A stretch of 64,000 nucleotides of DNA, from positions 6,138,001-6,202,000 of the forward strand of contig NZ_CP059693.1 of the NCBI RefSeq assembly GCF_028657945.1. Reading direction: 5' to 3'. This stretch comes from Thalassomonas haliotis (GTDB taxonomy: Bacteria; Pseudomonadota; Gammaproteobacteria; Enterobacterales; Alteromonadaceae). Under the pieces are notes generated by a model. That model was not told the DNA's origin and made no database searches. It saw only the letters and a list, made by a program, of their open reading frames with translations. Each line of letters opens with the position of its first letter. Within the stretch, counting starts at the first letter, position 1. The translations under genes were made by a program, and so were the position numbers. Of the stretch, positions 53,808-57,783 are shown piece by piece.

Positions 53808-55052
53808 ATGGATAACCTTTTCCGTCCCGAAGTATTAGAAAAAAAACGCCACAGACTGGACGGAGCCGTCAGCTTAGTTCAGCCGCCGCTGTTTAAATCC
53901 TTTGCCCTGCTAATGGTTTTTATCGTTTTCATTAGCCTGGTTTATCTCTCTATCGGCAGCTATACCCGCAAAGAAAGGGTCAGCGGCATGCTGCAGCCGG
54001 ACAGCGGCCTGGTCAAATTAACCGCACCGCAATCGGGTATTATCACCCAGTTACTGGTACAGGAAGGCCAGGCGGTGCAAAAAGATCAGCCTTTGCTGCG
54101 CATCACCTCGGAAAAACATGGCGCCGAGGGCTTTGAACTGAACCAGTCACTGATCAACCAGTACCAGTTCCAGATCACCACTTTAGAACAGCAAAAAAGC
54201 AAGCAGCAAACCCAGCACCAGCTGCAGATCACTGAGCTGGAAAATAAGCTCAGTAATTTTAAAAAACGCCTGCAGCAGCTGGACCTGCAAAAAGAGATTT
54301 TCGACAAGCGTATCGCCATCAACAAAGAAATCGTGTTGCAGGTATCCACTTTGGCGGGCACGGGGTATATTTCCGATCTCGAACTGAAAAAACAAAAAGA
54401 TTCCCTGTTGTCACTGGACCAGCAAGCTTCCGGCATCCGCTCGGAGCGATTGAGCATTAATGATCAAATTGAACAGATAGAGAACCAGCTGGCCCAATTG
54501 CCAATTGAACAGGCCAAGCTCAGCAACCAGATCAATACCCAACTGGCGGAAACCAGGCTGCAGCTGGCAACCATCAAACAACAGCGCCTCGGTGAATTAA
54601 GGGCGCCCGCCGACGGCATCATTTCCGGCTTACTGGCCAAAACGGGAAAATCGGTACTCACCAACCAGAACCTGCTGAGCATTCTGCCCGATGGCAGCGC
54701 CATGCAGGCGGTGATTTATGTGCCGACCTCGGCGTTTGGTTTTATCAACAACGGCCAGAAAACCCGGTTAAGATACCATGCCTTCCCTTATGAAAAGTTT
54801 GGTATTTATGACGGCACTATTTCAGAAATCAGCACCAGTGTGATTTTACCGGATGAGCTTGAGACCCCGGGACTGATCAATCAGCCTTCCTACCGTGTGG
54901 TAGTGGACCTGGCACATCAGAATATAAATGCCTATGGCAAAGAAATTTCCCTGCGCTCCGGCATGATGCTCGACGCCGATATTATTATCGAAGAGCGCTC
55001 GTTATTACACTGGTTATTCGATCCTGTGCTCAGCATTAAGGGCCAGTTATAA
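53808..55052 (+). CDS. HlyD-family membrane-fusion protein of a peptide exporter
   Basis: 414 residues. An N-terminal cytosolic tail, one transmembrane helix (about 31-50, LLMVFIVFISLVYLSIG), then RKERVSGMLQPDSGLVKLTA opening a lipoyl/barrel-sandwich domain (SGIITQLLVQEGQAVQKDQPLLRI), a long coiled coil (about 110-245) and the returning half-lipoyl segment GELRAPADGIISGLLAKTGK. This is the CvaA/HlyD adaptor type bridging an inner-membrane ABC exporter to an outer-membrane channel. The ABC partner follows; no TolC-type gene is in the window. Confidence 0.92.
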   Translation: MDNLFRPEVLEKKRHRLDGAVSLVQPPLFKSFALLMVFIVFISLVYLSIGSYTRKERVSGMLQPDSGLVKLTAPQSGIITQLLVQEGQAVQKDQPLLRITSEKHGAEGFELNQSLINQYQFQITTLEQQKSKQQTQHQLQITELENKLSNFKKRLQQLDLQKEIFDKRIAINKEIVLQVSTLAGTGYISDLELKKQKDSLLSLDQQASGIRSERLSINDQIEQIENQLAQLPIEQAKLSNQINTQLAETRLQLATIKQQRLGELRAPADGIISGLLAKTGKSVLTNQNLLSILPDGSAMQAVIYVPTSAFGFINNGQKTRLRYHAFPYEKFGIYDGTISEISTSVILPDELETPGLINQPSYRVVVDLAHQNINAYGKEISLRSGMMLDADIIIEERSLLHWLFDPVLSIKGQL

Positions 55053-55202
55053 ATGTTCTCAACCCCGGCAAGCTCATTATTTGGCTCGGCAGTTATCTCG
55101 ACAACTAGCTCGACTCTTGGCCCGACTCTTAACCCGACTCTTTACTCGGTAACTAGCCCATTAACACCTATGTACCAATTATCAGCCAAGGACTGTAACT
55201 AG
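55053..55202 (+). CDS. Possible small Ser/Thr-rich peptide filling the hlyD-transporter gap
   Basis: A 49-codon uninterrupted frame that begins directly after the HlyD-type stop and ends 3 bases before the transporter start. The product is Ser/Thr/Leu-rich, with three in-frame 12-base repeats at 55110-55145 encoding STLGP, TLNP, TLYS. It has no recognisable domain, Cys, or double-Gly motif, and no strong ribosome site of its own. It could be a translational bridge or a chance frame kept open by the repeats. Confidence 0.35.
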   Translation: MFSTPASSLFGSAVISTTSSTLGPTLNPTLYSVTSPLTPMYQLSAKDCN

Positions 55203-55205
55203 ATT

Positions 55206-57338
55206 ATGGATAACTCTTCTCCAGGCGCAAAATTACAGTTTTGGCACCGTAAAACACTCCCTTTATTGCTGCAATCGGAAGCAACCGAATGCGGCCTGGC
55301 TTCGCTGGCGATGGTGGCGGGTTATCACGGCCATAAATCCGATCTGCTGGCGATGCGGCAAAAGTTCAGCCTCTCCCTTGAAGGGGCGACTTTACTCGAT
55401 ATCATGCATTTTGCCGAAAAACTGGAATTAACCTCCCGGCCGCTGCGCATCGAACTCGATGATATGCAGCACCTGCAGACTCCCTGCATTTTACATTGGG
55501 ATCTCAACCATTTTGTGGTGTTAAAGTCCGCCAACGCCAAAGGCATAGTCATTCACGATCCGGCCTCAGGTGTCAGAAAATTAAAACTCGCAGAGGTTTC
55601 CGGCCATTTTACCGGCATCGCATTAGAGCTGAGTCCGACCCAGGCTTTTGAACAAAAAGAGCCGCCGCCGTCGCTGAAATTCAGTGATTTCTGGAGTAAG
55701 ATCACCGGCTTAACTAAGTCGCTGACCCTTATTTTCACCCTGTCGCTGCTGATCCAGGTATTCGCCCTGGCCAGCCCCTATTATATCCAGCTGGTGGTGG
55801 ATGACGTCATTCTCACCGGGGATACCTCTTTGCTGACTGTGCTGGCAATAGGCTTTTTCCTGCTGCTGCTGTTTGAAACCGTGACCAATGCCATCCGGCG
55901 GCTGTCGTTAATGCATTTTGCCAACTTGATGAGTATCCAGCTTGGGGCCAATTTATTCCATCACCTGATCCGCCTGCCGCTGCAATATTTTGAAAAGCGC
56001 CATATGGGTGACGTGGTCTCCCGTTTTGGCTCTTTGCAGGAAGTAAAAAGGCTGCTGACCACAGGGGTAATTGAAACCATCATCGACGGCCTGATGGCGA
56101 TGATCACCCTGGGCATGATCTTCTTTTACAGCCCGGCGCTGTCGGCTGTGGTATTAGCCGCGGTCTGCCTGTATGCCCTGGTACGTTTTCTCAGCTATAA
56201 ACCTTACCGGGCCATCAGCGAGCAGGAAATCATTGCCCGCGCCGAAGAAAACAGTAATTTTATGGAAACCGTACGCGGCATCCAGACCATTAAATTGTTT
56301 GGCTCAGAAGTCAAAAGGGAAGGCCAGTGGCAAAACCGTTTTGCCGCCGCCATCAACCAGAATATCCGCTTCGGCAACTTTGTTATTTCCTATGATGCCA
56401 TCAACCGTTTCCTGTTTGGCGTCGAGAATATTGCGGTAATTTATCTTGCCGCCCACCTGGTGATCGACGGCGGTTTCAGTACCGGTATGCTGTTTGCCTT
56501 TATGGCCTATAAACGACAATTTATCGACAAAATGGCGGCACTGATCGAGAAAGTCATCGAATTTAAAATGCTGGGATTACATTTCGAGCGTTTGGCGGAT
56601 ATCGCCCTGACAGAAAAAGAAGTACTGCAGGAAGAGGATGCCAAACCCCATGATATCAAGGGAAAAATCACCCTGGAAAATGTCTCCTTCAGCTATAGCG
56701 ATGCCGGACAAGATGTCATACACGGCGTCAATATGAAGATCAATGCCGGCGAATCCGTGGCCATCACCGGGCCTTCCGGCAGCGGCAAATCCACCTTGTT
56801 GAAAATCATGCTCGGCTTAAACCAACCTCAGCAGGGCCAGGTACTGATAGACGATATTCCGCTGCAACAGCTGGGACATAAACAGTTCCGCCAGCAGATC
56901 GCTGCGGTGATGCAGGATGATGAGCTGCTTTCGGGTTCGGTGGCGGATAATATCGCCTTTTTTGATACCTCGATCGATATGGAACACTTGGTATATTGCG
57001 CCGAACTGGCGGCGATCCATGACGATATCAGCAATATGCCCATGGGTTATAACAGCCTCATCGGCGATATGGGCTCAAGTTTATCCGGCGGACAAAAACA
57101 GCGCATCATACTGGCACGGGCCTTATATAAGAAACCTAAGATCCTGTTTATGGATGAAGCTACCAGTCACCTGGATACCCAGCTGGAATCGGATATCAAT
57201 GACGCGGTTAAACGCCTGGATATTACCCGGGTGATCATCGCCCATCGCAAGGAAACCATTGCCTCGGCGGACAGGGAAATCAAAATTACCGAACAAGAAA
57301 ATAATGAGGCCCAAGCCAATGAAAAGGCGGCGGGTTAA
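55206..57338 (+). CDS. Peptidase-containing ABC transporter (C39 leader peptidase, bacteriocin-type exporter)
   Basis: 710 residues. An N-terminal C39 cysteine peptidase (about 1-140) has an intact triad: C29 in SEATECGLASLAM with Q23 for the oxyanion, H102 in WDLNHFVVL and D118 in IVIHDPASG. A six-helix ABC transmembrane domain follows (about 165-440), then the ATPase: Walker A GPSGSGKST (about 521), signature LSGGQKQR, Walker B ILFMDEATSHLD and an H-loop His in IIAHRKE. Such proteins cleave a double-glycine leader and pump the mature peptide to an adaptor; here the HlyD protein is adjacent and a double-glycine precursor gene lies just downstream on the other strand. Confidence 0.95.
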   Translation: MDNSSPGAKLQFWHRKTLPLLLQSEATECGLASLAMVAGYHGHKSDLLAMRQKFSLSLEGATLLDIMHFAEKLELTSRPLRIELDDMQHLQTPCILHWDLNHFVVLKSANAKGIVIHDPASGVRKLKLAEVSGHFTGIALELSPTQAFEQKEPPPSLKFSDFWSKITGLTKSLTLIFTLSLLIQVFALASPYYIQLVVDDVILTGDTSLLTVLAIGFFLLLLFETVTNAIRRLSLMHFANLMSIQLGANLFHHLIRLPLQYFEKRHMGDVVSRFGSLQEVKRLLTTGVIETIIDGLMAMITLGMIFFYSPALSAVVLAAVCLYALVRFLSYKPYRAISEQEIIARAEENSNFMETVRGIQTIKLFGSEVKREGQWQNRFAAAINQNIRFGNFVISYDAINRFLFGVENIAVIYLAAHLVIDGGFSTGMLFAFMAYKRQFIDKMAALIEKVIEFKMLGLHFERLADIALTEKEVLQEEDAKPHDIKGKITLENVSFSYSDAGQDVIHGVNMKINAGESVAITGPSGSGKSTLLKIMLGLNQPQQGQVLIDDIPLQQLGHKQFRQQIAAVMQDDELLSGSVADNIAFFDTSIDMEHLVYCAELAAIHDDISNMPMGYNSLIGDMGSSLSGGQKQRIILARALYKKPKILFMDEATSHLDTQLESDINDAVKRLDITRVIIAHRKETIASADREIKITEQENNEAQANEKAAG

Positions 57339-57361
57339 TCTGGTTAAACGGAAAAATAAAA

Positions 57362-57395
57362 AACGGTCTTTACTGCATAAACTAAAAAGACCGTT
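57362..57395 (-). terminator. Terminator between the exporter and the precursor peptide gene
   Basis: Perfect 10-bp arms AACGGTCTTT / AAAGACCGTT around a 14-base loop. On the minus strand it follows the precursor peptide stop by 39 bases and is followed by TTTTTTATTTTT. The plus strand shows no T run, so it belongs mainly to the peptide transcript. Confidence 0.88.
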
Positions 57396-57433
57396 GCCTT
57401 AAGTGCAAATTGAAGCTGCTGACAGTCATAGCA

Positions 57434-57610
57434 TTAATGCGTAACACGATATTCAGTGGTTTTCCTGGTCAGAATTCTGACACGGCTACCCCGCATTTCC
57501 GGTATCTCTGGCAAGGTGCCGCCGGCAATTTCTGCGGTGAACTCCATTGGCATGGTTTTCAGATCCCTTGATAAATTCGCTAATTTCTTTTTATTAACTT
57601 TTAATTCCAT
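57434..57610 (-). CDS. Double-glycine leader peptide precursor, candidate substrate of the C39 exporter
   Basis: A 58-residue frame with AGGA 8 bases before the ATG (complement 57608-57610). It starts MELKVNKKKLANLSRDLKT, a basic amphipathic leader, and continues PMEFTAEIAGG, a double-glycine cleavage site at residues 30-31. The 27-residue mature part begins TLPEIPEMRG and ends TEYRVTH: no cysteine, several Arg and Thr, rather polar. The gene converges on the peptidase-transporter gene 96 bases away, with its own promoter and terminator. Leader and location strongly support it as the exported substrate. Whether it is a bacteriocin, a signal or something else cannot be said; no modification enzyme is encoded nearby. 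Confidence 0.75.
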   Translation of the reverse strand: MELKVNKKKLANLSRDLKTMPMEFTAEIAGGTLPEIPEMRGSRVRILTRKTTEYRVTH

Positions 57611-57663
57611 AACTCAATCCTTTTGATTTATTTTAATTCCTGCGCACCCGAAAGTGCCCCATT

Positions 57664-57691
57664 AAAATAGCAATTAATCGTCCAGAGTCAA
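57664..57691 (-). promoter_or_regulatory. Promoter of the double-glycine peptide gene
   Basis: Minus strand TTGACT (complement 57686-57691), 16-base spacer, TATTTT (complement 57664-57669), about 55 bases upstream of the ATG. Confidence 0.6.
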
Positions 57692-57783
57692 GTCAGAGAT
57701 ATAACATTTCGTTTACTATTCATACAAATTTTGGCAGCTTAACTTGCCAGAAAAAAATGACAGTAAATAAGCCAAGAAATAAC

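Follow-up and report, generated by a model that had tools for sequence, protein, structure and literature searches.

The window examined here is a stretch of 64,000 nucleotides of the Thalassomonas haliotis chromosome, and one part of it encodes a peptide exporter, a periplasmic adaptor and, on the opposite strand, a small peptide with a double-glycine leader. The question raised by this locus is what such an exporter serves when no modification gene lies beside it. The answer favoured here, and judged rather probable from the sequence comparisons set out below, is that the window encodes the exporting and leader-cleaving components of a class I lanthipeptide system with scattered genes, and that the neighbouring peptide is a linear substrate. 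An exporter acting as the unlinked LanT of such a system would explain why modification genes are missing from the window. The initial annotation of this DNA had stated that no modification gene was evident, which holds for the locus but not for the genome, where a LanB and three LanC are encoded elsewhere.

The exporter locus and its small gene

The features of the locus, with the basis of each in brackets, are as follows.

53808 to 55052, plus strand: HlyD-type periplasmic adaptor, 414 aa (Pfam HlyD_3, E 2.2e-20)
55053 to 55202, plus strand: small frame between HlyD and C39, ending in SAKDCN, not claimed as part of the mechanism (list of open reading frames)
55206 to 57338, plus strand: C39 peptidase-ABC exporter, 710 aa, proposed unlinked LanT (Pfam, residues, tree)
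57350 to 57395, minus strand: terminator of the peptide gene, stem AACGGTCTTT/AAAGACCGTT, then a T-rich run (folding; stem conserved in 4/4 genomes)
57434 to 57610, minus strand: 58-codon double-Gly precursor peptide without Cys (in 4/4 genomes of the genus; dN/dS below 1)
57437 to 57517, minus strand: 27-residue core with 0 Cys and 6 Ser/Thr (alignment of four orthologues, counts)
57518 to 57610, minus strand: 31-residue leader MELKVNKKKLANLSRDLKTMPMEFTAEIAGG (member of the dispersed leader family)
57618 to 57622, minus strand: ribosome site AAGGA, 7 bases before the ATG (sequence; conserved in 4/4)
57664 to 57691, minus strand: promoter-like TTGACT-16-TATTTT, with TG before the second hexamer (scan; conserved in 4/4)

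The Pfam matches in both large genes lie above the cut-offs, with HlyD_3 in the adaptor and Peptidase_C39, ABC_membrane and ABC_tran in the exporter. The exporter retains Q23, C29, H102 and D118 and has the build of a LanT- or PCAT-type protein, that is, a C39 domain with its Cys, His and Asp fused to an ABC exporter; the intact C39-ABC transporter and HlyD adaptor of the initial annotation are confirmed by these domains and residues. The small frame between the two genes begins at the HlyD stop codon (TAAATG) and is Thr/Ser-rich and repetitive in the window, and the DNA of three congeners likewise ends in SAKDCN at this place, with a frame shorter than that of the window. Beyond the opposite-strand leader gene lie what we take, from their protein sequences, to be amino-acid biosynthesis genes.

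The peptide gene is convergent with the C39-ABC gene and had been proposed at first as an unlisted double-Gly gene of 58 codons on the minus strand. Near-full-length relatives of its product (74–79% identity) adjoin the exporter in all three of the other Thalassomonas genomes sampled (G001–G003, with T. haliotis as G000), and the gene is therefore more than a chance reading frame. Conservation of the frame and of its Gly-Gly site had been named from the start as the check on the proposal, and since both are kept in the three congeners, each of which retains the exporter, the sequence-based grounds for rejecting it fall away. The named genome collection, when searched with the 58-residue protein, gave one locus, and the peptide had no match in Pfam or NCBIfam at E values up to 1. 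The window leader ends in TAEIAGG, and an alignment of the four orthologues revealed a core made up of an acidic Pro-Glu stretch of variable length and then a conserved basic tail. There is no Cys in any of the four cores, and because it lacks this residue the window peptide cannot form a lanthionine.

The ribosome site, promoter and terminator that had been assigned to the gene are all conserved in the four genomes. For the promoter it is the retention of the −35/−10 region in 4/4 genomes that speaks for it and not the consensus alone, as the consensus scan by itself did no better than chance (2 found versus 1.4 expected). The terminator was revealed by folding and conservation; its omission from the signal scan probably stems from a loop too long for the limits of that scan. 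Upstream of the gene, two short inverted repeats (about 57644–57660 and 57732–57749, minus strand) are also conserved in 4/4 genomes, one of them at the predicted transcript start and the other being TGGCAAGTTAAGCTGCCA, and a role for them in the regulation of the peptide gene is possible.

A leader shared among dispersed precursors

When the 58-residue protein was used to query 40 genomes, its own included, nine matches were obtained in T. haliotis and 21–23 in each congener, mostly to the leader only. A wider leader model was seeded from six genomes (G000–G003, G019 and G020), and with it 15 leader frames were found in T. haliotis, 14 of them at E values of 1.9e-10 or lower and one at 0.001; all 74 candidates were scored in this genome, giving 16 rows, and the row that fell inside the LanB frame (E 0.012) was dropped. 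At least 23, at least 27 and at least 27 leader frames are present in G001, G002 and G003. The window peptide itself belongs to this leader family (E 4e-15 against the model), and its leader is 42–87% identical to the other 20 seed leaders.

The cores that follow this leader are highly variable. Among the 78 distinct cores in the fetched loci, a count that leaves out one truncated frame in L140, 73 carry Cys together with Ser/Thr, and the five that are free of Cys are the four window orthologues and a frame in L150. Cys is present in 14 of the 15 leader frames of T. haliotis, the window peptide being the sole Cys-free one. The hallmarks of class I precursors, a common leader and a core with Cys and Ser/Thr, are found genome-wide. 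A mature part without Cys had been described from the first, and the counts show that it is truly unusual among the cores of this family; for this reason the early suggestion that the peptide may be a signal or a new type persists.

Several members of the family drew attention for other reasons. The second Cys-free frame (L150:1124-1312, plus strand, in G002) has another HlyD-C39 pair of that genome, with 62% identity to the window exporter, about 2.5 kb away. A precursor in G112 (L064:1498-1893, plus strand) has 17 Cys and repeated (T/S)CGST-like units, and two others (L067:1393-1644 and L108:10776-10970, both minus strand) have a partial duplication of the leader before the Gly-Gly site. At about 3.21 Mb in T. 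haliotis (L029:7249-12612, minus strand), a dispersed precursor is flanked on one side by a YcaO-OsmC gene and on the other by genes of AraC and radical SAM type, and a further C39 exporter lies about 10 kb away.

The possibility that every dispersed precursor has modification genes of its own nearby was considered and set aside. The 20 proteins scanned around precursors and one other C39 locus were mostly ordinary ones, such as a lipase, a dipeptidase, a nucleoside transporter and a cytochrome peroxidase, with one LanC among them; a second precursor-adjacent LanC came from a separate LanC search.

The distribution of the leader ties it to a modification enzyme found elsewhere. The leader is present in 26 of the 295 genomes of the taxonomic family, 20 of which are independent of the model seeds. 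Matches to LanB (PF04738) were found in 32 genomes, 25 of them strong (E below 1e-60, a cut-off chosen after seeing the data), one fragmentary and six weak. The genomes with strong or fragmentary LanB are the same 26 that carry the leader, and strong LanB occurs in none of the other 269 (Fisher p 8e-38, with kinship ignored). The fragmentary case, G058, was counted as positive on two pieces with a best E of 1.1e-27, and leaving it out gives a match of 25 of 26. The six genomes with weak matches (E 3e-18 to 1e-35) carry no leader, and when every LanB match is counted the leader is found in 26/32 versus 0/263. In an order-level sample of 394 genomes the leader was found in five at E 1e-4, four of them from the same taxonomic family. 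A stand-alone locus for one unmodified peptide is made unlikely by this concordance.

The exporter among lan operons and the enzymes elsewhere

Close relatives of the window exporter, defined by at least 64% identity over residues 1–470 (a limit chosen after seeing the data, with 62% and 59% as the next values), were found in 22 of the 295 genomes. The leader accompanies the exporter in 19 of these 22, versus 7 of the other 273, and the C39 exporters of those seven leader genomes are more distant. No LanB match was found in the three genomes that have a close exporter and no leader (G081, G152 and G172). Leader, LanB and close exporter occur together in 19 genomes, and in 15 of them the exporter starts 3.7–6.4 kb from LanB, in operons with LanC and HlyD; both LanB Pfam domains were found in the four that were scanned. 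Only the four Thalassomonas genomes depart from this arrangement. The notion of an isolated system without modification genes, as the locus had first appeared, did not survive these comparisons, with the leader tracking LanB in 26/26 genomes and the exporter's relatives standing in lan operons in 15/19.

As in the window, the genes for HlyD and the C39 exporter stand side by side in the lan operons that were fetched. Three of these operons (L107, L109 and L110) have the order HlyD, C39, opposite-strand leader gene(s), LanC and LanB, with the leader gene(s) in the same slot and orientation as in the window and with Cys in the cores. Because its order of HlyD, C39 and opposite-strand leader gene matches theirs, the window resembles a lan operon from which LanC and LanB are missing. 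In seven loci (L105, L109, L110 and L112–L115) a protein of 453–455 aa (cluster c5) adjoins HlyD, and the one copy that was scanned, in L105, is a nucleotidyltransferase with hexapeptide repeats.

Relatives with Cys-containing cores in the same slot, and a window peptide that no longer has LanC and LanB beside it, would also fit a decaying lanthipeptide precursor that has lost its Cys and is now functionless. Such decay is improbable, given core dN/dS values of 0.22–0.40 over six pairs (leader 0.12–0.42, with very few changes in the closest pair), Fisher p values of 0.006 and 0.037 in two pairs, and a frame kept in 4/4 genomes despite changes in length, together with a conserved promoter region and terminator. 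By these ratios the window peptide is under purifying selection; overlapping signals are also a possible source of the constraint.

A tree of the exporters places the genus within a clade of 23 rows, of which 15 are linked to LanB. Support for this placement of the window exporter is 100/100, and the sister of the genus is G043 (93/90); the clade also includes G168, a genome without LanB. The LanB-linked exporters as a whole do not form a single clade, as linkage is scattered over the tree and 63 of 500 label shuffles were equally clustered. This tree bears on a further explanation, in which the exporter serves its neighbour only, as an unmodified double-Gly peptide of a microcin-like or signal kind, the dispersed precursors use the two other C39 exporters of the genome and the likeness of the leaders reflects common ancestry. 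The peptide and exporter are indeed inseparable in 4/4 genomes, the peptide has no Cys, and one of the two other exporters has a dispersed precursor about 10 kb away, which is a counterpoint to a shared system as well. Even so, service to the neighbour alone is unlikely: of the three C39 exporters in T. haliotis only that of the window falls within the LanB-linked clade, the close exporter goes with the leader in the proportions given above, and the window leader has the identity to the other seed leaders noted before (42–87%).

A scattered class I system, the preferred reading, requires enzymes elsewhere, and these were found. The single LanB of T. haliotis (G000:C1:5129362-5131302, PF04738 E 3.9e-136) and one LanC lie 1.06 Mb from the window, at 5.13 Mb, where they stand beside two precursors and where no C39 gene was found near LanB. 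A LanB-LanC locus with adjacent leader-family precursors is present in G000–G003, and the leaders beside the 5.13 Mb LanB differ somewhat from the dispersed ones. Three LanC (at 5.13, 2.705 and 4.782 Mb) have the WCYG, CHG and AHG motifs, which presumably hold the zinc ligands, and those at 2.705 and 4.782 Mb each adjoin precursors; a fourth LANC-like protein is divergent. A LanM route in T. haliotis is made unlikely by the sizes of its four LANC_like frames (402–426 aa, none of LanM size). LanM-sized frames of 1112–1117 aa are present in the three congeners, with a leader frame beside one of them in G001.

The history of these genes may be read in part from the trees. The operon of G043, where the sister of the exporter is found, has a LanC with 66% identity to the one at 2.705 Mb, and the 2.705 Mb LanC for this reason looks like a one-time neighbour of the exporter. 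The LanB of the genus shares only 41–46% identity with the operon LanBs and groups outside their clade (98/96), and so is not the original partner of the exporter; that partner has probably disappeared, with the LanB at 5.13 Mb assuming its role. A simple history of an operon pulled apart is weakened by this placement, though one LanC fits it.

Taken together, precursors with one common leader, encoded at about 15 places on the chromosome, would be recognized in trans by the single LanB at 5.13 Mb, which would dehydrate Ser/Thr, and one or more of the three LanC (5.13, 2.71 and 4.78 Mb) would add Cys to give thioether rings. The window exporter would then cut after the Gly-Gly site and export the core. 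That the neighbouring C39 exporter handles the 58-residue peptide as a substrate, as was first proposed, is very likely, and the retention of frame and Gly-Gly site beside the exporter in 3/3 congeners agrees with this. It is probably exported as a linear peptide, unmodified or perhaps with Thr/Ser dehydrated. More tentatively, and with some doubt, it might be supposed that one LanB, several LanC and one exporter serve all of the roughly 15 scattered precursors (at least 23–27 in the congeners) in trans, and that the Cys-free member retained next to the exporter has turned into a specialized secreted peptide, linear and possibly dehydrated, such as a signal reporting export activity.

Relation to known lanthipeptide systems

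Class I lanthipeptides are already known from this genus, as viridisins from T. viridans XOM25 and thalassomonasins from T. actiniarum (PMC11433236), and the LanB-LanC locus at 5.13 Mb with its adjacent precursors resembles their clusters. The Cys numbers of the LanB-LanC-adjacent precursors in G001 (4, 2 and 2) and G003 (3 and 2) fit those of the viridisins and thalassomonasins (PMC11433236). The fit in length is rough, with leaders of 31 residues here versus 29 given for thalassomonasins, and with 26 residues in one core of G001 versus the 25 of the review; the passages of that account cited here make no mention of dispersed precursors, an unlinked exporter or a Cys-free peptide (PMC11433236). 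A class I region with a C39 gene in Pseudoalteromonas viridis was compared by its authors with thalassomonasin (PMC11015633).

The class II prochlorosins and cyanotins, in which one LanM serves many dispersed precursors and, among the cyanotins, some members lack Cys (PMC7268733; PMC12328550), are alike in having one modifying system, many distant precursors and a Cys-lacking member (PMC7268733). Unlike the prochlorosins, the system here is of class I (LanB plus LanC), with no LANC frame of LanM size in its own genome as judged by size, and the window leader has no match of the Nif11 or nitrile-hydratase type in a Pfam search of the window peptide at E up to 1. The first half of the NCBIfam model NF038158 (class I lanthipeptide leader, L1b) was matched by three of five family precursors (E 0.0013, 0.12 and 0.88), all below the curated cut-off; the window peptide gave no match to it at E up to 1.

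As far as the sources drawn upon extend, the class I lanthipeptides of the genus, dispersed class II precursors and Cys-lacking cyanotins are thus already known; no account of a class I system with scattered precursors and an unlinked exporter was found in the open-licence literature. The mining of gene clusters would miss the link of the exporter, and of most precursors, to the known lan locus. If the scattered system is real, the genus would hold several times more precursors than its clusters show, with one dehydratase and probably one exporter, and the handling of many cores by one LanB would be directly testable in a class I system. The missing step of export and leader cleavage would also gain a named candidate, and the peptide without Cys lends itself to the question of what the common leader is sufficient for by itself.

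For the exporter itself the nearest comparison is with the structure 4ry2, an 'ABC-type bacteriocin transporter' which we take to be PCAT1. The order of domains is the same as in the window exporter, with residues 14–696 aligned at E 4.5e-101. Differences from 4ry2 are the HlyD partner of the window exporter and its place in a Gram-negative clade associated with lan genes.
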